The notes below the pieces were generated by a model. It was not told where the DNA came from. It saw nothing but the letters and a program-made list of their open reading frames with translations, and made no database searches. This document shows, piece after piece, positions 50,683 to 62,490 of a DNA stretch of 64,000 nt. The translations under genes were made by a program, and so were the position numbers. Position 1 is the stretch's first letter; every line of letters begins with the position of its first letter. The stretch spans positions 62,001 to 126,000 of the forward strand of contig NZ_FNBT01000001.1 in NCBI RefSeq assembly GCF_900102425.1, written 5' to 3'. This DNA is from Blastococcus aurantiacus. Its GTDB lineage: Bacteria; Actinomycetota; Actinomycetes; Mycobacteriales; Geodermatophilaceae.

Positions 50683-52230
50683 GTGGCCCGGACGATGCTC
50701 CACCGCTCCCTGGCGGAGGGTGCGCTGCTGGGCTGGCTGCTGCGGCAGGCACCGTCGGTGCGGCGAGTCCCGGTCGGGGTGATGACGCCGGAGGAGGCGG
50801 CCATCGAGCTGGCCCGGGTGCAGGCGCGCAAGGCGATGGAGGCCGCTCACGAGGCGGAGCTCGTCATGGCGGTGGCCGCCGGCCGTCCTGACACCGACGA
50901 TCCGCCGCCCGGTCATCCCGGTGCGCGCCGGCGGGGTGCGGGGTCGCCGGTTCCCGGCACGTCGGAGTTCCTGCCCGACGAGCTGGCGCTGGTGCTGAAC
51001 TGCTCCCGCGTCTACGCCGGCGGGGTGCTGGGTGATGCGTTCCAGCTGGTGGAGCGGATGCCGGCGGTGCTGGCCGAGTGCGCCGCGGGTCGGCTGGACT
51101 GGTTCCGGGCGCGGGTGTTCGCCGACGTGCTCGCCACGGCCTCCGACGACGTGGTGGCCGTCGTCGTGCCCGCGGTGCTGCCCGAGGCTGCCGGGCTGTC
51201 GTCGGGAAAGCTGCGCAACCGGCTGGTCGCTGCGGCCGTGGCAGCCGATGAGGAGTTCGCCGAGCGGCGCCGGATCGAGGCCGAGCGGCGCGCGGCGGTG
51301 CGCCTGCACCCGACCGGCGACGGGATGTCGGCGCTGACCAGTGAGTTGCCGTCGGCCGTGGCGGCGGCGATGTGGTCGACGATCGACCAGGCCGCCCAGC
51401 TGGCCGCCACCGCCGGTGATGACCGGCCGATCGGGGTGCTGCGCGCCGAGGCCCACCCCGCGCTGGTGCTGCGGCCGTGGGACACCTCTGGCCCGGCCGT
51501 GACCGGCCACCTCACCGTCACCGCCCCGCTGTCCGCACTACGGCGGCCGGGTCGTGCGGCAGCCGCGGCGCAGCCGTGGGCGGGCCAAGCGCCGGACGCG
51601 GCGGATCGCGTCCGGGCGGCGGCCGGTGCGGCGACGCCGAGCCTTGACGGCAGCCCGATCACCACCGAGCACCTGCGCGAACTGCTCGCCCAGCTCGGCG
51701 CACTCGGCGTGCAGGCGCCGCCCGGTGGCAGCCTGGCCGTGGCTCTCGCCGACGACGACGGCGCGCTGCTGGCCACCGCCACCGCCGCCGAGCTGGCCCG
51801 CCTCGCCGCCCGCGGCTGTCCGACCCACGGTCGCGACTCCGACTGCGGGTGCCCCGTCCTCGGGCCCCCCGCCGAGGCCGACGGCTACGCCCACTCCGCG
51901 ACCCAGGAGCGGTTCCTCCGCCTGCGCGATCGCACCTGCCGGCACCCCGGCTGCGGTCAGCCCGCCGGCCGCACCGACGCCGACCACGTCGTCCCCTACG
52001 ACTGCGGCGGACGCACCAGCTGCCAGAACCTCTGCTGCCTGTGCCGCAGCCACCACCGGCTCAAGACCTTCGCCCGCGGCTGGCGCTTCGCGATGACCAC
52101 CGACGGCACCCTCACCGTCACCACCCCGTCCGGCATCACCCGCACCACCCGGCCACCAGGCTTCCGCGACCAGCGCGCGCTCCCACCACCACGACCAACA
52201 CCGGTCGACGAGAGCCCGCCGCCGTTCTGA
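50683..52230 (+). CDS. DUF222 / HNH endonuclease-domain protein (13E12 family)
   Basis: 515 residues. The N-terminal two-thirds are the DUF222 helical region (ELALVLNCSRVYAGGVLGDA, RMPAVLAECAAGRLDWFRAR). The C-terminal nuclease is of HNH type: CRHPGCGQPAGRTDADHVVP, about residues 418-437, followed by CQNLCCLCRSHHRLKTF, with the His/Asn/His set and two CxxC-like zinc pairs intact. Related genes are abundant mobile-type elements in actinobacteria, and a number of mycobacterial copies are induced by DNA damage. A perfect SOS box sits at the start. GTG at 50683 leaves only four bases to the box, so the message is leaderless or begins at the ATG at 50695. Confidence 0.9.
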   Translation: MARTMLHRSLAEGALLGWLLRQAPSVRRVPVGVMTPEEAAIELARVQARKAMEAAHEAELVMAVAAGRPDTDDPPPGHPGARRRGAGSPVPGTSEFLPDELALVLNCSRVYAGGVLGDAFQLVERMPAVLAECAAGRLDWFRARVFADVLATASDDVVAVVVPAVLPEAAGLSSGKLRNRLVAAAVAADEEFAERRRIEAERRAAVRLHPTGDGMSALTSELPSAVAAAMWSTIDQAAQLAATAGDDRPIGVLRAEAHPALVLRPWDTSGPAVTGHLTVTAPLSALRRPGRAAAAAQPWAGQAPDAADRVRAAAGAATPSLDGSPITTEHLRELLAQLGALGVQAPPGGSLAVALADDDGALLATATAAELARLAARGCPTHGRDSDCGCPVLGPPAEADGYAHSATQERFLRLRDRTCRHPGCGQPAGRTDADHVVPYDCGGRTSCQNLCCLCRSHHRLKTFARGWRFAMTTDGTLTVTTPSGITRTTRPPGFRDQRALPPPRPTPVDESPPPF

Positions 52231-52265
52231 TCCGCGCTCGGGGAAATCAGGTAGGTGCGCGGATC
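52229..52265. terminator. bidirectional terminator between HNH and ankyrin genes
   Basis: Perfect nine-base stem GATCCGCGC / GCGCGGATC with a 19-base loop. It overlaps the end of both convergent stop codons. Confidence 0.6.
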
Positions 52266-52662
52266 AGCGAGGGGCGTCGAGCAGCTCCGTCATGGCGGTC
52301 AGGCCGAAGAAGTCGGCGGTCATGCGCGCGGTCATCTCGCCCAGGTCGGGGTCGGCGCCGGCCGCGAGCAGATGGCGTACGGCGTCCGTTGCCTGCTTGA
52401 AGACGGCGGCAGCGAGCGCCGTCTGACCCTTGTCGTTGATCCGGGCGTGGTCCGCGCCCCGGGCCAGCAGTGCTGCCACCGTGTCCCCGTGGCCGTAGTA
52501 CGCGGCGAGCACGAGCAGCGTGTCCCCGGCACTGTTGGTCAGGTCGACCGGGACGCCGGCATCCACGTAGGCAGCCAGCACCTCCGTCTCGCCCTGTCGG
52601 GCTAGGTCGAAGAGGTGACCCGCCTGGACGGTGCCGGTGGACGGGCCGCCGCTGCTGCTCAT
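52264..52662 (-). CDS. ankyrin-repeat protein (first of a tandem pair)
   Basis: 132 residues from ATG 52662, made of about three ankyrin repeats: VDLTNSAGDTLLVLAAYYGH, GADHARINDKGQTALAAAVF, and the cap GADPDLGEMTARMTADFFGL. No signal or membrane segment. It is a close relative of the next gene on the same strand, with identical closing sequence TAMTELLDAPR, so the two arose by duplication. Ankyrin proteins bind partners; the target here is unknown. The frame extends to GTG 52683 and that start cannot be excluded. Confidence 0.85.
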   Translation of the reverse strand: MSSSGGPSTGTVQAGHLFDLARQGETEVLAAYVDAGVPVDLTNSAGDTLLVLAAYYGHGDTVAALLARGADHARINDKGQTALAAAVFKQATDAVRHLLAAGADPDLGEMTARMTADFFGLTAMTELLDAPR

Positions 52663-52731
52663 GGCGGGCAGCCTAGGAGGCACCGGCGCCGCAGCGGAAG
52701 GCTCGGACGGCTGCCCCCGTGACGCGTCGGT

Positions 52732-53127
52732 TCAGCGGGGCGCGTCGAGCAGTTCGGTCATCGCGGTGAGCTCGAAGAACTGCGCCGTCACCCGGGCGCT
52801 CTGCCCGCCGAGGTCGGGATCCGCCCCGGCGGCGAGCAGGTGCCGGACGGCGTCCTCGGCCTGCTTGAACACCGCCGCGGCCAGCGCCGTCTGCCCCTTG
52901 TCGTTGACCCGCGAGTGATCGGCCCCGCGCGCGAGCAGCGCCGCCACCGTGTCCGCATGGCCGTAGTAGGCCGCGAGTAGCAGGAGCGTGTCGCCCTTCT
53001 CGTTGGTGAGGTTCACCGGAGCCCGACGGTCGATGTAGGACACCAGCTCCTCGGTGTGGCCGAACCGCGCCAGGTCGAACATCCGGCGGGCCACCTCGAG
53101 CAGCTGGGGATCCATGGGTTCGCTGGT
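52732..53127 (-). CDS. ankyrin-repeat protein (second of a tandem pair)
   Basis: 131 residues from GTG 53127 (127 from ATG 53115). The repeats LTNEKGDTLLLLAAYYGHAD, GADHSRVNDKGQTALAAAVF and GADPDLGGQSARVTAQFFEL parallel the first gene over their whole length, with the same end TAMTELLDAPR. The frame stays open upstream into the frameshifted GNAT gene, but that is chance. A 69-base spacer separates it from the first ankyrin gene, so the two are likely cotranscribed. Confidence 0.85.
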   Translation of the reverse strand, partial: TSEPMDPQLLEVARRMFDLARFGHTEELVSYIDRRAPVNLTNEKGDTLLLLAAYYGHADTVAALLARGADHSRVNDKGQTALAAAVFKQAEDAVRHLLAAGADPDLGGQSARVTAQFFELTAMTELLDAPR

Positions 53128-53140
53128 CACACCGCCCACC

Positions 53141-53604
53141 CTAGGAGCGCAGGACCAGCTTGCAGCCCACGTGCGACGCGACGAAGCCCAGGCGCTCGTA
53201 GAAGCGGAGCGCCTGGGGCCGGGCGCGGTCGGTGGCGAGCTGCACCAAGGCGCAGTCCCGTCGGTAAGCCCCCGTGATCGCCCAGCGGAACAGCGCCTCC
53301 CCGAGGGCCGCCCCCGACGGTCGGGACGGACGCGGACGCCCTCGATCTGCGCGCGCAGCGCTCCCCGACGCGACAGCCCCGGGAGGAAGGACAGCTGGAG
53401 CGTGCCGACCACCCGCTTGCCCTCCGCAGACCCCTCGCCCTCCGCGACGACGACCAGCAGGTGCGCTGGGTCGGCGTCGACGAGGTCGCAGGCGCGGCGG
53501 TACGGGGCGAGCTCGCCTTCCGGCGACTCGCGCCCGGCGCCGAGGGGATCGTCAGCCAGCAGCGCCACCAGCGCCGGCAGATCGGCGGCCACCGCCCGGC
53601 GCAC
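53141..53604 (-). pseudogene. GNAT acetyltransferase gene with a one-base frameshift
   Basis: The N-terminal part (GTG 53604) reads MRRAVAADLPALVALLADDP up to IEGVRVRPDRRG, the acetyl-CoA loop. The rest of the motif, ALGEALFRWAITGAYRRD and LATDRARPQALRFYERLGF, continues in another frame to a TAG at 53141. The break is at the C-run 53311-53315. With one added base the protein is a normal 154-residue GNAT, so this is either a recent pseudogene or a sequencing error in a homopolymer. Confidence 0.8.
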
Positions 53605-53698: not shown

Positions 53699-54616
53699 TC
53701 AGCCGGCGGCCGGCCGGATGCCGCGCTGGTCGGCGTTGGGCGCAGCCTTCGCGACGAGTCCGGGGAGGACGTCGTCGAGCTCCTCGACGGTCCACCGCGC
53801 GCCCTTGTCGACGCCAGGACCGGCCTGCCACCCCTCGGCGACGCTGATCATGCCGCCGCGGACGTTGAACACCCGGCCGGTGACCTCGCGCGCGGCCGGC
53901 CCCGCCAGCCAGACGACCAGCGGCGCGATGTTGTCCGGCGCGGACGGGTCGAAGGCGTTCGGGTCCGGCTTCTCGCGGTCGGGACGCAGGTTCTCGGTCA
54001 TCCGGGTGAGGGCCGCGGGCGCGACCGCGTTGACCGTGACGCCGTAGCGGCCCAGCTCCATCGCGGTGATCACGGTCATCGCCGCGATCCCGGCCTTGGC
54101 CGCCCCGTAGTTGGACTGCCCCGCGTTGCCGTAGATGCCCGAGGACGACGTCGTGTTGATGACCCGGGCGTCCACCGGGCGCCCGGCCTTGTGCTCCTCG
54201 CGCCAGTACGCGGCGGCGTGGCGGAGCGGGGCGAACGTCCCCTTGAGGTGGACCTGGATGACCGCGTCCCACTCCTGCTCGGACATGTTGACCAGCATCC
54301 GGTCGCGCAGGATGCCGGCGTTGTTGACCAGCACGTCGAGCCGGCCGAAGCGGTCGATCGTCGAGCGCACGAGCCGCTCGGCGGCCGCGAAGTCCGAGAC
54401 GTCGTCCCCGTTCGCGGCGGCCTGGCCGCCCATCGCCCGGATCTCGTCGACGACCTCGCCCGCCGGGCCGGTCGAGCCGCCGCTCCCGTCCACGTCGGCG
54501 CCGAGGTCGTTGACCACGACGGCGTACCCCTGCCGGGCGAACTCGAGGGCGTGCCCCCGGCCGATCCCCCGGGCCGCACCCGTCACGATGACCACGCGTT
54601 GCTCGTCGGACTGCAT
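53699..54616 (-). CDS. SDR-family oxidoreductase, hydroxyacyl-CoA-dehydrogenase type
   Basis: 305 residues, longer than most SDRs. Cofactor loop TGAARGIGRGHALEFARQGY near residue 12, then VVVNDLGADVDGSGGSTGPA (the NDLG signature of peroxisomal multifunctional enzyme/HSD17B4 relatives), VLVNNAGILRDRMLVNMSEQ near 95, catalytic Ser in NTTSSSGIYGNAG and Tyr-x3-Lys in SNYGAAKAG near 168. It probably oxidises a 3-hydroxyacyl-CoA of the beta-oxidation type. ATG at 54616 has a strong AAGGAGG site. It is divergent from the DHA2 transporter gene, across a perfect palindrome. Confidence 0.9.
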   Translation of the reverse strand: MQSDEQRVVIVTGAARGIGRGHALEFARQGYAVVVNDLGADVDGSGGSTGPAGEVVDEIRAMGGQAAANGDDVSDFAAAERLVRSTIDRFGRLDVLVNNAGILRDRMLVNMSEQEWDAVIQVHLKGTFAPLRHAAAYWREEHKAGRPVDARVINTTSSSGIYGNAGQSNYGAAKAGIAAMTVITAMELGRYGVTVNAVAPAALTRMTENLRPDREKPDPNAFDPSAPDNIAPLVVWLAGPAAREVTGRVFNVRGGMISVAEGWQAGPGVDKGARWTVEELDDVLPGLVAKAAPNADQRGIRPAAG

Positions 54617-54647: not shown

Positions 54648-54664
54648 AATCCTGTTCCAGGATT
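54648..54664. promoter_or_regulatory. perfect palindrome between divergent SDR and MFS genes
   Basis: AATCCTG-TTC-CAGGATT, a 7-3-7 perfect inverted repeat at the centre of the 106-base intergenic region. It is a likely operator; the TetR-type regulator encoded at 56251-56868, after the transporter gene, is the nearest candidate to bind it. Confidence 0.5.
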
Positions 54665-54722
54665 GCCGGAGTCAACCGGCTGGGCCGCCCCGAGGGCGAC
54701 CGCTCGATCTCCGAGGGGATGC

Positions 54723-56285
54723 ATGCCTGCCGACGCGCGCACCAGCAGCAGCGAGGTCGCCGCGGCCCCGACGACCGCACCCGAGGGGGTCGGCGCCGAG
54801 GAGGCGCCCGACGAACGCGCGGTCATGAAGGAGGCCTGGCTCACCCTTTCGGTGGTCAGCCTCGCCAGCATCTTCTCGGGCATGTCCGGCAGCGCGCTGA
54901 ACGTCGCGCTCCCGACGGTCGTCCGGCACTTCGACGCCAGCGCGACGGCGGCCAGCTGGATGCTGCTGGCCTTCATGCTGGCCAACACCGGACTGATGAT
55001 CTTCTTCGGCCGGCTGGCCGACATGTTCGGGCGCCGGCAGATGTACCTGGTGGGCCTGGCCACCTTCACCTTCGCCAGCTTCCTGTGCGGCCTCGCGCCC
55101 AACGCCTGGACGGTCGTGGGACTGCGGGTGCTCCAGGCCGCCGGTGCGGCGATGCTGCTCACCAACAGCGCGGCGCTGGTCACCGCCGCCTTCCCCCGCG
55201 CCCGGCTGGGCCAGGGCATGGGCATCTACCTGGCCTCGTTCTCGGTGGCCCAACTGCTGGGCCCGACCGTCGGCGGGGTGCTCGCCGAGCACGCCGGCTG
55301 GCGCTGGGTGTTCTGGTTCAACGTGCCGATCGGCCTGATCTGCCTGGCCTGGGGCGCCTGGGCCCTCCCCCGCGTCGCCCGGTCCGGCCAGCGCCAGGGC
55401 ATCGACGTCCCGGGCAACCTGCTCGTCATCGTGGCGCTGGGCAGCGGCCTGGCGGCGCTGTCGCAGGCGACGACGCTGGGCTGGACCAGCTGGGTGGTCA
55501 TCGGCGGGCTCGTCGTCTTCCTCCTCGGCATGCCGACGTTCGTGCTCTTCGAGCGCCGGGTGACCCACCCGCTGGTCGACATGACGCTCTTCCGCGACCG
55601 GCCGTTCGCCCTGGGCCTCGGCGCCTCGTTCCTCAACTCGACGTCGCAGGCCGGCGTGCTGCTGCTCTTCTCGCTGTACTTCCAGGCCGTGCAGGGCGTC
55701 GACCCGCTGGACGCCGGCCTGCGCGTCCTGCCCCTGGCGGTGGCGACGCTGATCTTCTCCTCGTCCTCGGGCCTGTTCCAGCGCTGGGTGTCCCCGCGCG
55801 CGCTGGCCGTGGTGGGCAACCTCTGCACCGGCGCCGGCCTCTCGGTGCTCGCCTCGTCGGTGATCACGGAGGCCGGCTACGTCGCCATCGCCGCGGGCCT
55901 GGTGCTCGCCGGCGCGGGGTCCGGGCTGTTCATGCCGTCCAACACGACGGCACTCATGGGCGCCATGCCGCACGACCGGCTGGGCATCGCCAACGCGATG
56001 CGGCTGATGCTGCAGCAGAGCGGGTTCGTGGTCGGGACGGCCGTCGTCCTGTCCGTGCTCACCGCCCCGCTGGCACCCGAGCTCCGGCAGTACGCGTTCG
56101 CCGGCACGCTGTCCGACGTCTCGGCCGACGGGCTCACCGACCTCCTGACCGGTTACCGGTGGACCCTGTTCACCATGCTCACGCTCAACGCGGCCACCGT
56201 GCTGACCTCGCTGGCCGCGCTGCGTGCGAGCAAGCGGGCCGACGGCGCGGTCATCCCTCCGGCAGGTCCGACAGCCGCCGGATGA
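54723..56285 (+). CDS. MFS drug/solute exporter, DHA2 family
   Basis: 520 residues from ATG 54723, after a GAGGGG site; 14 membrane helices. Family marks include MSGSALNVALPTVVRHFDAS near residue 55 (the D1-like motif of DHA2), LADMFGRRQMYLVGLATFTF near 98, and AGSGLFMPSNTTALMGAMPH near 398. It expels a hydrophobic compound in exchange for protons. The last 35 bases overlap the 3' end of the convergent TetR gene, an unusual tight arrangement. A perfect palindrome in front suggests TetR control. Confidence 0.9.
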   Translation: MPADARTSSSEVAAAPTTAPEGVGAEEAPDERAVMKEAWLTLSVVSLASIFSGMSGSALNVALPTVVRHFDASATAASWMLLAFMLANTGLMIFFGRLADMFGRRQMYLVGLATFTFASFLCGLAPNAWTVVGLRVLQAAGAAMLLTNSAALVTAAFPRARLGQGMGIYLASFSVAQLLGPTVGGVLAEHAGWRWVFWFNVPIGLICLAWGAWALPRVARSGQRQGIDVPGNLLVIVALGSGLAALSQATTLGWTSWVVIGGLVVFLLGMPTFVLFERRVTHPLVDMTLFRDRPFALGLGASFLNSTSQAGVLLLFSLYFQAVQGVDPLDAGLRVLPLAVATLIFSSSSGLFQRWVSPRALAVVGNLCTGAGLSVLASSVITEAGYVAIAAGLVLAGAGSGLFMPSNTTALMGAMPHDRLGIANAMRLMLQQSGFVVGTAVVLSVLTAPLAPELRQYAFAGTLSDVSADGLTDLLTGYRWTLFTMLTLNAATVLTSLAALRASKRADGAVIPPAGPTAAG

Positions 56286-56868
56286 TCGCCAGGGCGCTCT
56301 CGGTGACCGCGACGGCCTGATCCTCGGTCTCGCAGCCGATGATCTGACGCCCCGCCTCCCCCATCGCCGCGGTGAGGATGGAGACCAGCAGGCGGTCGGC
56401 CGGCCCGGTGCCCACCGCGAGGAGCACCGCGTTCTGCCGCACCCAGTCGTTGCGTCGTCGGCTGCGCACGAGGAAGAACCCGGGCGGCCCGTCGCCGTCG
56501 AGGAACAGCCGGGCCAGTGCCCGGCGCTCCCACGTCGTCTCGAGGTAGGCCCGGGCCCCCACGAGGAACAGCTCCGCCGGCGAGGTGGTGCCGTCCCGCC
56601 GGGCCAGGGCGACCGCCGTGGCCGCCTGCTCCTCGTAGGCGGCCTGGTGGTCCTCCCACACGGCGAGGAACAGCTCGGACTTGCCCCCGTAGTGGTGGTA
56701 CAGGCTGCCGACGCTGAGCCCGGCCCGCTCGACGACGTCGGCCACGCTGCACTCGGCGAAGCCGCGCTGGGCGAACACCTCACCGGCGGCCGCGATCAGG
56801 GTCCGGCGCGTGTCGGCCGTCCGGCTCCACTGCCACGCACTGCCCTGCGACTGCCCGCTCGCCCGCAC
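56251..56868 (-). CDS. TetR-family regulator
   Basis: 205 residues. The N-terminal DNA-binding domain (RRTLIAAAGEVFAQRGFAEC, SVADVVERAGLSVGSLYHHY) is complete; YGGKSELFLAVW follows, and the rest is a helical ligand-binding domain. It converges on the DHA2 exporter gene and overlaps its last 35 bases. A 5-6-5 inverted repeat at 56911-56926 in front of its start suggests autoregulation. Its presumed targets are the exporter/SDR divergon and perhaps the acyl-CoA cluster that starts at 57.0 kb. Confidence 0.88.
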   Translation of the reverse strand: MRASGQSQGSAWQWSRTADTRRTLIAAAGEVFAQRGFAECSVADVVERAGLSVGSLYHHYGGKSELFLAVWEDHQAAYEEQAATAVALARRDGTTSPAELFLVGARAYLETTWERRALARLFLDGDGPPGFFLVRSRRRNDWVRQNAVLLAVGTGPADRLLVSILTAAMGEAGRQIIGCETEDQAVAVTESALAIIRRLSDLPEG

Positions 56869-56926: not shown

Positions 56927-57031
56927 GGCCTACGTCACCTCACCGATCCGGCACGACCGTGTGCACCGGGTCGCGACAGGTGTCGTGCAGCCCCTTGCAA
57001 AAGAACTTCGAAGCCTGAATGGTTAGCGACT

Positions 57032-59179
57032 GTGATCGAAGCCACCGCGACCGGTGCCCGGACGGTGGCCCGTCTCGCCCGGCACGTCGAAGTGGCTCTC
57101 GCCGGCTGCGATCTCTCCGTGCCGCAGTACCGGCTGCTGAGCCTGCTGTCCGAGGGCTCGGTGAACGCCTCCACGCTCGCCCAGCGGCTCGTGGTGAGCC
57201 GCCCGAGCGTGACCGCGCTCGTGGACGGTCTCGTCGCCCGCGGCATGGTCGAGCGCGGCACGGACCCGGCAGACCGCCGCCACGTCACCCACCTGGTCAC
57301 CGAGCGCGGCGAGCAGGTGCTCGCCGAGGCCGACCGCGCGGCGGCGGCCCGGCTTCGGGACCTGGCCACCCATCTCGCCCCCGAGGACGCTCCGGACGCG
57401 TGTGCGGGTCTGGCCGCCTGGGGGCGGGCCCTGGACTCCTACCGCGACACCGCCGCACGCGCCCCCCACTGGCCCGAACGCTTCCCGTCAGGAGACAGCA
57501 TGCCGCCGACCGCGCCGCAGGACGAGCAGACCCAGGACCTGGAGGGCCGCCCCGACGAGGAGGCGACCGAGGCCGAGGCCCGGACGGAGGACGAGGCCGC
57601 CGCGCGTCAGGCGCTCGTCGAGCGGGCGACCGCCACCGGCATGCTGAGCGCCCTGTGGGCCTCGCTGCAGCCCGACGCCCCCGCGATCTACTCGGCCCAG
57701 GGCGACCTGACCTTCCGGGAGCTGAACGCGCGCACCAACCAGCTGGCCCGCGCGCTGCGTGGCTACGGCGTCCAGGCCGGTGACTCGATCGCCCTCATCT
57801 GCTCCAACCGGCCCGAGTTCATCGAGACCCTCTACGCCGCCCAGCGCACGGGGCTCCGGCTCACGCCGGTCAACTGGCACCTCACCGCCGAGGAGATCAA
57901 CTACATCCTCCGCGACTGCGGCGCGGCCGCCGTCGTGACCGAGCGCCGCTTCGTCGACACCGTGCGAGCGTCCCTGGACGGCGTGGACGCCCGCGCCCTC
58001 CTCGTCGTCGACGCCGCCGAGGGCGGGCACGCCCCCTTCGACGACTACGAGCAGGCCGTCTCCGCGGAGTCCGGCGAGGACATCGAGGACCCGGTGCTGG
58101 GCAGCACCATGGCCTACACCTCGGGCACGACCGGCCGGCCCAAGGGCGTGCACCGCGCGGGCGTCGCCGTGTCGCCGTTCACGGCCCTGATCGGTGAGGT
58201 GTCGGGCTACGTCGCGGGCGAGGACCTCAACCTGGTCACCGGCCCGCTGTACCACTCCGCGCCGCTGGCGTTCTCGCTGAGCCTGGCGATGACCCGCGGC
58301 GCCGGCGTGGTGCTCATGGACAAGTGGGACGCCGAGGAGACGCTCCGCCTGATCGAGAAGCACCGCATCACGCACACGCACCTGGTGCCGACCATGTTCC
58401 ACCGCATGATCTCGCTGCCCCAGGAGGTCAAGGACCGCTACGACACCAGCAGTCTGCGGCACGTCTGGCACGGCGCCGCCCCGTGCCCCGTGCCGGTCAA
58501 GCAGGCCTTCATGGACTGGCTCGGCCCCATCGCGTGGGAGTACTACGCGGCCACCGAGGGCTTCGGCTCCGTCGTCGGCCCGCACGAGTGGCTGGCCCGC
58601 CCCGGCACCGTCGGGCAGCCCCCGGCCGGGCACATCCGGATCCTGGACGACGCCGGCGAGGACCTGCCCGCCGGCGTCCCGGGCACCATCTACCTGAAGG
58701 CACCGGACACCAACCGGTTCGTCTACCTGGGCGACCAGGCCAAGACCGAGTCCTCCTACAAGGGCGACTACTTCACCCTCGGCGACGTCGGCTACCTCGA
58801 CGAGGACGGCTGGCTCTTCCTCACCGACCGCAGCGTCGACCTGATCATCTCCGGCGGGGTCAACGTGTACCCCGCGGAGGTCGAGGCCGTGCTCATCACC
58901 CACCCCTCCGTGGGCGACGTCGGCGTCATCGGGGTGCCCGACCCCGAGTGGGGCGAGTCGGTGAAGGCCGTGATCGAGCTGCAGCCCGGCTACGAGGCGT
59001 CCCCCGCGCTGGCCGAGGAGCTGACCAGCTGGGCCCGCGAGCGCCTGGCCCACTTCAAGTGCCCCCGCACGGTCGACTTCGTCGAGGAGCTGCCGCGCAC
59101 CCCGTCCGGGAAGTTGTCCAAGCGCACCCTGCGGGAGAACTTCCGCCAGCAGGCGGCGGCCGCGGGCACGGATGCCTGA
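57032..59179 (+). CDS. MarR regulator fused in frame to a fatty-acyl-CoA synthetase
   Basis: One open frame of 715 codons from GTG 57032 joins two proteins with no stop between. Residues about 1-150 are a MarR-type winged helix (LSVPQYRLLSLLSEGSVNAS, VVSRPSVTALVDGLVARGMV, GTDPADRRHVTHLVTERG). From about 157 an acidic linker leads to an AMP-forming ligase: YTSGTTGRPKG near 363, TEGFGSVVGPHEW near 510, ISGGVNVYPAEVE near 607 and the catalytic Lys in PSGKLSKRTL near 692. It should activate a carboxylic acid as its CoA ester. An AGGAG site and ATG at 57500 (residue 157) allow a 559-residue ligase to be made alone. Two acyl-CoA dehydrogenase genes follow. Confidence 0.88.
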   Translation: MIEATATGARTVARLARHVEVALAGCDLSVPQYRLLSLLSEGSVNASTLAQRLVVSRPSVTALVDGLVARGMVERGTDPADRRHVTHLVTERGEQVLAEADRAAAARLRDLATHLAPEDAPDACAGLAAWGRALDSYRDTAARAPHWPERFPSGDSMPPTAPQDEQTQDLEGRPDEEATEAEARTEDEAAARQALVERATATGMLSALWASLQPDAPAIYSAQGDLTFRELNARTNQLARALRGYGVQAGDSIALICSNRPEFIETLYAAQRTGLRLTPVNWHLTAEEINYILRDCGAAAVVTERRFVDTVRASLDGVDARALLVVDAAEGGHAPFDDYEQAVSAESGEDIEDPVLGSTMAYTSGTTGRPKGVHRAGVAVSPFTALIGEVSGYVAGEDLNLVTGPLYHSAPLAFSLSLAMTRGAGVVLMDKWDAEETLRLIEKHRITHTHLVPTMFHRMISLPQEVKDRYDTSSLRHVWHGAAPCPVPVKQAFMDWLGPIAWEYYAATEGFGSVVGPHEWLARPGTVGQPPAGHIRILDDAGEDLPAGVPGTIYLKAPDTNRFVYLGDQAKTESSYKGDYFTLGDVGYLDEDGWLFLTDRSVDLIISGGVNVYPAEVEAVLITHPSVGDVGVIGVPDPEWGESVKAVIELQPGYEASPALAEELTSWARERLAHFKCPRTVDFVEELPRTPSGKLSKRTLRENFRQQAAAAGTDA
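57490..57502 (+). promoter_or_regulatory. internal ribosome site and ATG inside the MarR-ligase frame
   Basis: AGGAGA followed by CAGC and ATG at 57500, in frame. This would start the ligase separately as MPPTAPQDEQ and so give a free enzyme in addition to the fusion. Confidence 0.55.
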
Positions 59180-59190
59180 GAGGACCTGAC

Positions 59191-60453
59191 ATGCCCCTGA
59201 CCGTCCGGCCGATCCCCACGCTCGACGACCGCATCAACGACATCCGCATGCGCACCGCGGAGATCGTGAACGACGACATCCTCCCGAACGAGCGGAACCT
59301 CTGGCGCTCGGCGCACGGCGGCGCGGTCGAGACCGAACCCTCGGTCATCGACGCCAAGCAGCTGCGCGAGGAGATCAAGCAGAAGGTCCGGAAGGCCGGT
59401 CTCTGGGCCCCGCACCTCCCCCAGGAGTACGGCGGCATGGGGCTGGACTTCCTCGCCCACGCCTACATGAACGAGGTCCTCGCCTACGCGATGGGCGCGG
59501 CGGCGCTGTTCGGCGTCGTCGCCCCCAACTCGGGCAACCAGACCATCCTGCTCAAGTACGGCACCCCGGAGCAGAAGGAGCAGTGGCTCCGCCCGCTCGT
59601 CGAGGGCGAGATGGAGTCCGGCTTCTCGATGACCGAGCCGGAGAACCCGGGCTCGGACCCGCGCTCGCTCACGACCACGGCGGTCCGCGACGGCGACGAG
59701 CTCGTGCTCAACGGGCACAAGTGGTTCACGTCCAACGGCAACGCGGCCGACTTCTTCATCGTCATGACCCGCGTCGTCGACGCCGACCACGACCCCGCGA
59801 CCGGCCGCGGCCAGATGGCCCAGCTCATCGTGCCGACCGACACCCCCGGTGTGAACATCGTCCGCGGCGTGGGCATCTGGGGCCGGCCGACGTCGGACCA
59901 CGTCGAGGTCCGCTACGAGAACGTGCGGGTGCCGGCGAGCAACCTGCTGGGCGCCGTCGGCCAGGGCCACCAGGCCGCGCAGGACCGGCTCGGCGCCGGC
60001 CGCGTGTTCCACTGCATGAACTCCATCGGCCAGATGTGGCGCGCCTTCGACCTCATGGTCGAGCGGGCCACCACCCGCACGGTCCACGGCGGGCCGCTCC
60101 AGGACAAGCAGTTCATCCAGGGCTTCATCGCCGACAGCTACATGGACATCAGCGCCGCCCGGCTCATGACCATCCAGGCCGCCGAGCGCGTCGCCCGCAA
60201 CGACCGGGGCGCCCGGACCGACATCTCCTCGATCAAGGTCTTCGTGCCCGCCGCCTACTCCCGGGTCGTGGACCGCGCCATCCAGGTGTGGGGCGCGGCC
60301 GGGGTCTCCAGCGACCTGCCCCTCTCCGGCATGTACCTCGGCGCCCGCACCCTGCGGCTCGCCGACGGGCCGGACGAGGTGCACAAGGTGCTGATCGCCA
60401 AGCACGTGCTCGACCGCTACGCCACCGAGGGCGGCTGGGACTTCGGCAACTGA
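59191..60453 (+). CDS. acyl-CoA dehydrogenase (ACAD10/11-like)
   Basis: 420 residues, 11 bases after the ligase stop. GFSMTEPENPGSDPRSLTTT near residue 145 and LVLNGHKWFTSNGNAADFFI near 170 are the FAD/substrate segments; DRLGAGRVFHCMNSIGQMWR near 267 contains the Arg of the FAD site; and LRLADGPDEVHKVLIAKHVL near 388 is the closing motif typical of ACAD10/11-type and related enzymes. It should desaturate the CoA ester formed by the ligase. The following dehydrogenase gene (62 bases on) is probably its partner. Confidence 0.92.
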   Translation: MPLTVRPIPTLDDRINDIRMRTAEIVNDDILPNERNLWRSAHGGAVETEPSVIDAKQLREEIKQKVRKAGLWAPHLPQEYGGMGLDFLAHAYMNEVLAYAMGAAALFGVVAPNSGNQTILLKYGTPEQKEQWLRPLVEGEMESGFSMTEPENPGSDPRSLTTTAVRDGDELVLNGHKWFTSNGNAADFFIVMTRVVDADHDPATGRGQMAQLIVPTDTPGVNIVRGVGIWGRPTSDHVEVRYENVRVPASNLLGAVGQGHQAAQDRLGAGRVFHCMNSIGQMWRAFDLMVERATTRTVHGGPLQDKQFIQGFIADSYMDISAARLMTIQAAERVARNDRGARTDISSIKVFVPAAYSRVVDRAIQVWGAAGVSSDLPLSGMYLGARTLRLADGPDEVHKVLIAKHVLDRYATEGGWDFGN

Positions 60454-60515: not shown

Positions 60516-61631
60516 ATGCTGATGCAGTTCGACAAGGAGCAGGAAGAGCTGCGCCGGACCCTGCGCCGCTTCCTCGAGACCAAGTCCTCCTCGGAGGAGG
60601 TCCGTCGCCTGATGGAGACCGAGGAGGGCTACGACCCGGGCGTCTGGAAGCAGATGGCCGAGCAGCTCGGCCTGCAGGGCCTGGCGATCCCCGAGGAGTT
60701 CGGCGGCTCCGGCTTCAGCATCCTGGAGACCGCGCTGGTGACCGAGGAGATGGGCCGCGCGCTGCTGCCGGCGCCCTACCTCGCCACCGTGCTCGCGGCC
60801 AACCTGCTCCAGCTGTCGGACGACCAGCAGGCCAAGACCGACCTCCTGCCCGGCATCGCGGACGGCTCGACCATCGCCACGGTCGCCCTCGCCGAGGCCG
60901 ACGGCAGGTGGACGGCGGAGAACCTCTCCACGACCGCCACCCGGGCCGGCGACGGCTGGACGCTCGAGGGCCAGAAGTCCTTCGTCCTGGACGGCACCAC
61001 GGCCTCGCTGCTGCTCGTCGTCGCGCAGGCTCCGGGTGGCCCCAGCGTGTTCGCCGTCGAGGGCTCGGCCTCCGGCCTCACCCGCCGCGGCCTGACCACC
61101 CTGGACATGACGCGCAAGCTCGCCGAGGTCGGCTTCTCCGGCACCCCGGCCCGCCTGGTCGGTGCCGAGGGCGACGCGGCGACGCTGGTCCCGCAGCTGA
61201 TGCGCACCGCGGTGGTGCTCCTCGCCACCGAGCAGGTCGGCGGCGCCCAGCGCTGCCTCGAGCGCACCGTCGAGTACGTCAACATCCGCTTCCAGTTCGG
61301 CCGCCCCGTCGGCAGCTTCCAGGCGGTCAAGCACCGCTGCGCCGACATGCTGCTCGAGGTCGAGTCCGCGCGCTCCGCGGCCTACTACGCCCTCTGGGCG
61401 CTGGCCGAGGGCGCCGACGACGCCGAGATCTCGGTCGACCTGGCCAAGGCGTACTGCTCCGAGGCCTACTGGATCGCGGCCTCGGACTCGATCCAGCTGC
61501 ACGGCGGCATCGCCTTCACCTGGGAGCACGACGCCCACCTGTACTACCGCCGCGCGAAGTCCACGAGCCTGCTGTTCGGCACCCCGACCGAGCACTGGGA
61601 CGCGGTGGCGGAGCAGCTGCTCTCCCGCTGA
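60516..61631 (+). CDS. acyl-CoA dehydrogenase, beta-like partner
   Basis: 371 residues. The alpha-helical N-terminus (GLQGLAIPEEFGGSGFSILE near residue 51) and the C-terminal core (IRFQFGRPVGSFQAVKHRCA near 258, SIQLHGGIAFTWEHDAHLYY near 327) are standard; the closing segment RAKSTSLLFGTPTEHW replaces the YEG base motif, as in the second gene of the 2.9-5.3 kb pair. Together with the preceding gene it probably makes one alpha/beta enzyme. ATG at 60516 follows a GAGAGG site. A long hairpin follows the stop and ends the operon. Confidence 0.9.
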   Translation: MLMQFDKEQEELRRTLRRFLETKSSSEEVRRLMETEEGYDPGVWKQMAEQLGLQGLAIPEEFGGSGFSILETALVTEEMGRALLPAPYLATVLAANLLQLSDDQQAKTDLLPGIADGSTIATVALAEADGRWTAENLSTTATRAGDGWTLEGQKSFVLDGTTASLLLVVAQAPGGPSVFAVEGSASGLTRRGLTTLDMTRKLAEVGFSGTPARLVGAEGDAATLVPQLMRTAVVLLATEQVGGAQRCLERTVEYVNIRFQFGRPVGSFQAVKHRCADMLLEVESARSAAYYALWALAEGADDAEISVDLAKAYCSEAYWIAASDSIQLHGGIAFTWEHDAHLYYRRAKSTSLLFGTPTEHWDAVAEQLLSR

Positions 61632-61737: not shown

Positions 61738-62490
61738 ATGTGCCATGACCACGACAGCCGCCCGCCCGCACCGCCCCGCAGCGGGGCCGTGGCCTCCCGG
61801 GAGTCCCTGACCCTCACGTCGGCCGACGGCACCGCCTTCGCCGCCGCATACGCCGCTCCGGAGGGCGCACCGGGCGCCGGCGTCGTCGTCCTGCCCGACA
61901 TCCGCGGACTGCACCCGTACTACGTGGCGCTGGCCGAGCGGTTCGCCGAGGCCTGCGTCGCCGCGGTCGCGATCGACTGGTTCGGCCGGACTGCCGGCGT
62001 GCCGGACGGTGGCGCGCGCGGCGAAGACTTCAGCTGGCAGGAGCACATCCCGCAGACGACCGCCGACGGCATCGACGCCGACATCGTCGCCGCCATGGCC
62101 GCGCTGCGGGAGCGGCACGGCGAGGACCTGCCGATCGTCACCGTCGGCTTCTGCTTCGGCGGCAGCCATTCCTGGCGGCAGTCCGGGGGCGACCTCGGCC
62201 TGGCCGGATGCGCCGGCTTCTACGGCCGGCCCTCGCTCGTGGGGGACGCCGCGAGCCGCGCCCACCTGCCCACGGTCATGCTGATCGCCGGCGCGGACAA
62301 GGCCACCCCGGTCGAGGACCAGCTGGCCCTCGCCGCCACGATGCGCGACGCCGGCGCCGACGTGGACGCCCCCGTCTACGACGGGGCGCCGCACTCCTTC
62401 TTCGACCGCGCCCACGGCGACTGGAGCGAGGCCTGCCGCGACGCCTGGGAGCACGTCCTCGGGCTCACCGACCGGGTGTCCCGCGCCTGA
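61738..62490 (+). CDS. dienelactone hydrolase family protein
   Basis: 250 residues, alpha/beta hydrolase of the DLH type. The nucleophile elbow VGFCFGGSHSW (Cys near residue 139) is the family mark, with the acid in LIAGADKATPVEDQ near 182 and the His in YDGAPHSFFDRAH near 218. It hydrolyses lactones or similar esters formed in aromatic catabolism, but could serve any small ester. ATG at 61738 is used. A separate hairpin before it shows that it is not part of the dehydrogenase operon. Confidence 0.9.
   Translation: MCHDHDSRPPAPPRSGAVASRESLTLTSADGTAFAAAYAAPEGAPGAGVVVLPDIRGLHPYYVALAERFAEACVAAVAIDWFGRTAGVPDGGARGEDFSWQEHIPQTTADGIDADIVAAMAALRERHGEDLPIVTVGFCFGGSHSWRQSGGDLGLAGCAGFYGRPSLVGDAASRAHLPTVMLIAGADKATPVEDQLALAATMRDAGADVDAPVYDGAPHSFFDRAHGDWSEACRDAWEHVLGLTDRVSRA

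Follow-up and report, generated by a model that had tools for sequence, protein, structure and literature searches.

Can a transcriptional regulator be made with an enzyme of its own operon attached, and how would such a gene have arisen? This question is raised by a locus of Blastococcus aurantiacus, lying in a stretch of 64,000 nucleotides (contig NZ_FNBT01000001.1, positions 62,001 to 126,000), which was analysed as a whole and is here called the window. A first-pass annotation had proposed that a MarR winged-helix domain continues without a stop codon into an acyl-CoA ligase, and that the ligase can also be made alone from a start at the junction.

One reading frame for a regulator and a ligase

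The frame at 57032-59179 of the forward strand comprises 715 codons and a stop, and its translation is a single uninterrupted chain. Translation and Pfam agree on a MarR domain running without a stop into a complete AMP-forming acyl-CoA ligase, as had been proposed: MarR_2 covers residues 27-83 (E = 3.4e-13), AMP-binding residues 209-558 (E = 1.1e-72) and AMP-binding_C residues 616-694 (E = 1e-23), and six Pfam families in all match the fusion protein at E <= 0.001. The MarR families score above the Pfam gathering thresholds (MarR_2, 50.0 vs 27 bits; MarR, 45.4 vs 24.6 bits), and PF00501 (245.4 bits) and PF13193 (84.5 bits) are both over their cut-offs, so that the domains of an AMP-forming acyl-CoA synthetase are present. 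The AGGAG and the in-frame ATG expected at the MarR/ligase junction were likewise found there (Table 1). The linker that joins the two folds differs in length and sequence among four fused genomes (described below) and is acidic in the window genome and in Blastococcus sp. TF02-09. An open frame is weak evidence in this DNA, because the reverse strand of the ligase carries a 521-codon open reading frame (ORF list); the evidence beyond chance is conservation, namely an in-frame fusion with the same junction in four of six carriers of the gene pair.

The start at GTG 57032 is well placed, because in the 120 bases that precede the anchor TGARTVARLAR in the window genome it is the sole in-frame ATG, GTG or TTG, and because a stop codon lies just upstream, in the MarR frame, in two related genomes (G019 and G004). 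One single GTG is likewise present in the 120 bases upstream of this anchor in TF02-09 and G019. By eye, a clear Shine-Dalgarno site is absent at GTG 57032.

Table 1. Features of the MarR-ligase locus and its neighbours, in window positions
Feature	Position	Strand	Basis or remark
Short-chain dehydrogenase, (3R)-hydroxyacyl-CoA dehydrogenase type	53699..54616	-	PDB 2et6, 3qlj; synteny
MFS-type transporter	54663..56285	+	Class by eye from translation; linked in six genomes
Divergent TetR-type regulator	56251..56868	-	NCBIfam TetR-type models, all below cut-offs; synteny in six genomes
Conserved block, candidate promoter plus operator, CTTGCAAAAGAACTTCGAAGCCTGAATGGTTAG	56994..57026	+	Near-identical in six genomes
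MarR winged-helix part, residues 1-156	57032..57499	+	GTG start; Pfam MarR_2/MarR
Variable linker joining the two folds, about residues 147-205	57470..57646	+	Alignment of four fused genomes
Internal Shine-Dalgarno site AGGAG	57490..57494	+	CAGGAGACAGCATG identical in four fused genomes
AMP-forming acyl-CoA ligase, 559 residues from the internal ATG	57500..59179	+	Stop 59177-59179; Pfam
Acyl-CoA dehydrogenase, nearest ACAD11 among solved structures	59191..60453	+	PDB; synteny
Second acyl-CoA dehydrogenase, nearest IpdE2 model and Tcur3481 structure	60516..61631	+	NCBIfam, PDB; synteny
Hydrolase, weakly YghX-like	61738..62490	+	55 bits vs cut-off 460; synteny

Occurrence of fused and separate genes

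The ligase (E <= 1e-100, at least 80% identity) was found in 6 of 23 Blastococcus genomes and was absent from the other 17, the other ligase matches in the six carriers being paralogues (43-45% identical). A close MarR occurs in the same six genomes (E = 1.7e-72 or better; next best of 60 relatives, 2.1e-15), and of 108 family genomes, only these six have the first acyl-CoA dehydrogenase of the operon (E <= 1e-130). The carriers are the window genome (G000), Blastococcus sp. TF02-09 (G001), Blastococcus sp. TML/M2B (G010), 'Candidatus Blastococcus massiliensis' AP3 (G019), B. aggregatus DSM 4725 (G022) and Blastococcus sp. CCUG 61487 (G004). The same fusion, which the first-pass annotation had suggested seeking in relatives, is present in four of them (G000, G001, G010 and G022); MarR and ligase share one frame and meet at an identical point in each, and the stretch from the last MarR helix up to the ATG is free of indels. 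In G019 and G004 the genes are separate: the MarR TGA overlaps the ligase GTG (4-base GTGA), and the ligase lies in another frame. At the gene level, then, close relatives are not all in the separate state, four of the six carriers being fused.

Gene order is common to the six genomes (short-chain dehydrogenase, transporter, TetR, MarR, ligase, two acyl-CoA dehydrogenases, hydrolase and ABC-type gene). A 4HBT thioesterase gene stands between TetR and MarR in G019 (L041:7125-7565; Pfam), and a similar reading frame occupies this place in G004 (L043, upstream of 7052). The TetR-MarR gap is only about 150-165 bases in the four fused genomes, so the 4HBT gene is absent at this place there; loss or gain of a thioesterase-type gene between TetR and MarR thus tracks the fusion state across the six genomes. 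In TML/M2B, frame breaks, possibly assembly errors, interrupt both the first acyl-CoA dehydrogenase (L040:9535-10795) and the ABC-type gene (L040:12936-13986), and the fused state of this genome is less secure than that of the other three because of these breaks in two neighbouring genes. Its MarR (L040:7437-7916) is five residues longer, through a tandem repeat of VARGM. Farther upstream in the window lie two adjacent, similar genes of ankyrin-type repeats (by eye; 52264-53604, reverse strand), also found as two copies in five related loci, and a gene for a 515-residue protein that by eye resembles HNH endonucleases of the 13E12 repeat type (50683-52230, forward strand).

We also searched for the fusion beyond these genomes. 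With the whole protein as query (E <= 1e-130), for which ten candidates were scored in each of 112 family genomes, the alignment spanned MarR and reached the C terminus of the ligase only in the four fused Blastococcus. The MarR profile matched 2 of 394 class genomes (E <= 1e-20) and 9 of 396 phylum genomes (E <= 1e-18), the window genome being included in both counts, and none of the nine other matches from the class and phylum genomes was fused. Among plasmids, 80% query coverage at one place was reached in 1 of 2854 matching records, outside the best 20 of the 2854, and a search with MarR alone matched 28 records, none of which reached 60% identity. No report of a MarR-acyl-CoA ligase fusion was found in the titles and abstracts of the literature matches listed.

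Origin of the fused state

The species tree was based on rpoB, rpoC, fusA, tuf and rplC (12 genomes, 10,800 columns; G004 and G017 each lack 4143 of 11697 columns, and G019 lacks 828). It groups the six carriers (99/99), the fused four (94/99) and the separate pair (84/88), and a single change between the fused and separate states suffices because each state forms its own clade. Other trees bear this out only in part: the MarR DNA tree pairs G019 with G004 (85/88), as does the tree of MarR plus ligase DNA (90/92); rpoB DNA alone places G019 beside G000 and G001 (82/40); the rpoB protein tree leaves the six carriers unresolved; the ligase protein tree has G010 outermost (90/92); and in the unrooted ligase DNA tree, G022 and G004 group with G000 and G001 (81/91).

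For polarity, ten distant MarR relatives were examined, nine from the class and phylum searches and one (L060) from a separate set of 17 loci, of which five Blastococcus loci and L060 were used and 11 weaker ones left out. All ten end at their own stop codon, and in eight of the ten this stop overlaps the start of the following gene by 4 bases. By parsimony, the ancestral state is a stand-alone, overlapping MarR and the fusion is derived, because all ten distant relatives stand alone and the tree calls for a single change. A recent loss of the stop in one strain was rejected, the fusion being common to four genomes that form one clade on the five-gene tree. The alternative that the regulator had just lost its stop codon is therefore half right: loss of the stop holds, and its recency in one strain does not, since four species share it.

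Candidate internal start of the free ligase

The site CAGGAGACAGCATG shows no differences among the four fused genomes, whereas the stretch around it varies: of the 174 windows of 14 bases in codons 149-205, it alone is identical. Over the whole fused-gene alignment, 144 of 2168 such windows are identical. Codon 154 is GGA in all four genomes, the only such case among 48 invariant glycines. The site contains rare codons: in the four fused genes, with the site itself counted, GGA encodes 4.3% of the glycines and TCA 2.5% of the serines. Base-level conservation of this kind looks like selection on the bases, and hence like a working ribosome site; the internal start looks selected because the site is identical within a variable stretch and uses rare codons. 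The internal restart thus bears signs of selection in the four fused genomes, and a free 559-residue ligase is very likely made from 57500.

The persistence of the fusion itself is another matter. Codon 153 is TCA, one change from a stop, in three of the four fused genomes, and is a stop in none. In a rough neutral count, 1.4 stop-making changes would be expected in codons 142-156 over the tree, with a probability of about 0.24 that none occurs. We therefore rejected the missing stop, taken by itself, as a sign of selection: a lasting fusion need not have been selected as a fusion, because drift would suffice.

Constraint and kinship of the MarR part

The dN/dS ratio of the MarR part is 0.10-0.30 in the six comparisons between fused genomes and 0.24 between the two separate ones, and the recognition-helix stretch SRPSVTALVDGL is invariant across all six genomes. 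These values indicate that the MarR part is under purifying selection, of an ordinary degree. In the four fused genomes, this constrained domain would exist only within the ligase chain.

The first-pass annotation had invoked MarR repressors of phenylpropanoid ligase operons, which respond to the CoA thioester. This kinship was not borne out. Against PDB profiles, the MarR part scores alike with AdcR, Rhodopseudomonas palustris CouR (6c28) and Rv1404 (E = 2.7e-10 to 7.1e-10), and lower with 5cyv (2.6e-06), which we take to be RHA1 CouR. CouR is thus not singled out as the closest kin of the MarR part, and kinship to it was rejected as a basis. The nearest MarR relatives (38-58% identity) come from an Acidimicrobiaceae MAG (L060) and other members of the phylum (L117-L125), and the gene after the distant relatives encodes an ABC exporter in eight of nine typed cases (Pfam), a count that leaves out the gene following the MarR of L123. 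Example loci with a MarR before an exporter gene are L060:4953-9225 and L125:4424-8642, and a second open reading frame of similar size follows in six of eight such loci. An exporter operon may thus be the source from which the MarR was taken, which weakens the analogy to CouR but is compatible with a CoA ligand.

Upstream block and operon

The block just upstream of the GTG is almost unchanged in the six genomes, whether fused or separate. Allowing up to 3 mismatches, we found a single match to its 18-base core, TTGCMAAAGAACTTCGAA, in every one of the six carrier genomes, always at this place, and no second copy of the block; the backward control produced 0-2 matches. An 8-base palindrome, CTTCGAAG, lies within the block in the window genome, and TTCGAA is present in all six. 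A scan for sigma-70 promoters upstream of the fusion found none. We infer that the block is promoter plus operator; it could hold both -35 and -10 elements, with transcription starting near the GTG and giving a leaderless message. Because the conserved block occurs once per genome, beside the fusion, it suggests an autoregulating MarR factor of a single operon.

The best NCBIfam matches of the ligase are FadD4 (7e-146) and PRK12406, both below cut-off (FadD4 model NF038341, 486.5 vs 850 bits), and its best PDB matches are 8weu and 8wev, named as a fatty-acyl-CoA synthase and a feruloyl-CoA synthetase. The ligase half thus resembles FadD4-type and feruloyl-CoA synthetase ligases, from which the fusion differs by its N-terminal MarR and its sub-cut-off score. 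It contains YTSGTTGRPKGV and PRTPSGKLSKR, which we take to be the classical catalytic motifs of AMP-forming acyl-CoA ligases. Together with its neighbours (Table 1), the ligase would belong to a beta-oxidation set for a bulky or long acid.

Proposed working and alternatives

On balance, we consider it probable that two proteins come from one frame, that the fusion had a single origin in Blastococcus, and that the MarR part represses its own operon. Two products are expected, a 715-residue MarR-acyl-CoA ligase from GTG 57032 and a 559-residue ligase from the internal start at 57500. With no stop after the MarR domain, the regulator would be made only with the ligase attached, short of proteolysis. 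The fusion would have arisen once, in the ancestor of the four Blastococcus species, from a stand-alone MarR overlapping the next gene by 4 bases; loss of the overlap would have merged the frames, the Shine-Dalgarno site and ATG then supplying the free ligase. The MarR part would probably repress its own operon through the block upstream and be released from it when acyl-CoA (or the acid) accumulates. The frame, its occurrence in four genomes, its derived state by parsimony, the purifying selection on MarR, the conserved bases of the internal start and the single upstream block in each genome are observed, whereas we infer the making of both proteins, DNA binding to the block, repression, the ligand, the promoter and any benefit of tethering.

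Several other readings were weighed; their probabilities overlap with each other and with that of the explanation just given, and need not sum to one. The chance is not far from even that the fusion is made and its MarR works as an ordinary repressor to which the attached ligase adds nothing, the stop having been lost by drift and only the internal start having mattered for fitness. The variable linker, base-by-base conservation at the internal start and not in the linker, the retention of separate genes in sister species and the neutral count of stop-making changes all agree with this, and the counterarguments are not strong: a repressor dimer would be burdened with two large passengers, and no stop has appeared at the TCA of codon 153. 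We think it somewhat unlikely that the tethered ligase passes its own acyl-AMP or acyl-CoA to MarR, or that the conformation of the ligase gates DNA binding, as a counterpart of BirA. Such coupling would suit two conserved and constrained domains in one chain, and there are precedents for a MarR released by a CoA thioester (CouR; PMC4737184) and for Group II ligases of BirA type that unite a DNA-binding domain with a ligase (PMC4016012); however, the MarR part is not specifically CouR-like, its relatives mostly precede ABC exporters, sister species have separate genes, and the ligase is probably also made alone.

It is unlikely that the fusion is a translational device that replaces the 4-base stop/start coupling, with ribosomes reading on and the internal start setting the ratio of free ligase to fusion. 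In its favour are the overlap itself, seen in both Blastococcus genomes with separate genes and in eight of ten distant relatives, and the AGGAG-ATG kept in the four fused genomes, but it would account for expression and not for a regulator that tolerates a ligase. Decay of the MarR part, with the ligase as the sole product that matters, would fit the capacity to make the ligase alone but is very improbable in the face of the MarR dN/dS of 0.10-0.30, the invariant recognition-helix stretch and the retained upstream block. We give hardly any credence to an assembly or sequencing error that deleted a stop; frame breaks do occur in two nearby genes of TML/M2B, but the assemblies of four different species agree on the junction, which led us to reject sequencing error as the source of the fusion, and the region from the last MarR helix to the ATG has no indel and includes 14 identical bases.

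Comparison with known systems

The CouR proteins of Rhodococcus jostii and Rhodopseudomonas palustris, which repress p-coumarate operons, combine a MarR fold with a CoA-thioester pathway, as the fusion does; their PDB chains have 146 and 186 residues vs 715 in the fusion, and no enoyl-CoA hydratase/lyase was recognised among the window operon genes looked at. To our knowledge, CouR has no attached ligase domain. According to PMC4737184, p-coumaroyl-CoA abolishes DNA binding of RHA1 CouR by masking DNA-binding arginines, Arg36 and Arg38 binding both DNA and CoA phosphates, and both residues are missing in some CoA-responsive homologues. The closest kin of the MarR part are the stand-alone MarRs before ABC exporters, which mostly share the 4-base overlap and, unlike the fusion, have their own stop and a non-ligase neighbour.

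Winged helices joined to enzymes are already known from BirA and MocR, and neither type was recognised here: among the six Pfam families of the fusion (E <= 0.001) there is no biotin ligase catalytic domain, no GntR wHTH and no aminotransferase fold. BirA itself synthesises the adenylate that acts as its effector. As a Group II biotin protein ligase, it has an N-terminal DNA-binding domain and a ligase that controls the genes of its own pathway (PMC4016012); it differs in its catalytic domain from the window fusion, which has PF00501/PF13193, a MarR-type HTH and an internal start for the free enzyme. In MocR/GabR, a GntR wHTH is joined through a linker to an enzyme of aminotransferase fold, again a winged helix plus an enzyme (PMC6677901 and PMC6917764). 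MocR is described in PMC5320631 as broadly distributed and its enzyme-like part as sensory, whereas the window fusion is limited to one clade and keeps its catalytic motifs.

Implications

Taken together, the comparisons indicate that this is a real, derived fusion common to one clade. Enzyme-regulator fusions of the BirA or MocR sort are familiar mostly as wide, long-established families, whereas this one is confined to a single clade of a genus, and its origin is traceable to a 4-base stop/start overlap. A comparison of fused and separate forms is possible because sister species that share the operon and the upstream block show both states. A general question thereby becomes testable, namely whether a tether between sensor and enzyme alters the response, or is a neutral accident tolerated through the free enzyme. 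It is rather unlikely that we are looking at a young BirA-like device for fatty or bulky acids, in which a ligase would carry its own transcription factor and sense its own turnover through the tether, the conserved internal start setting the ratio of sensor-enzyme to free enzyme. If this were true, the unfused ancestral state retained in sister species would provide a built-in control.
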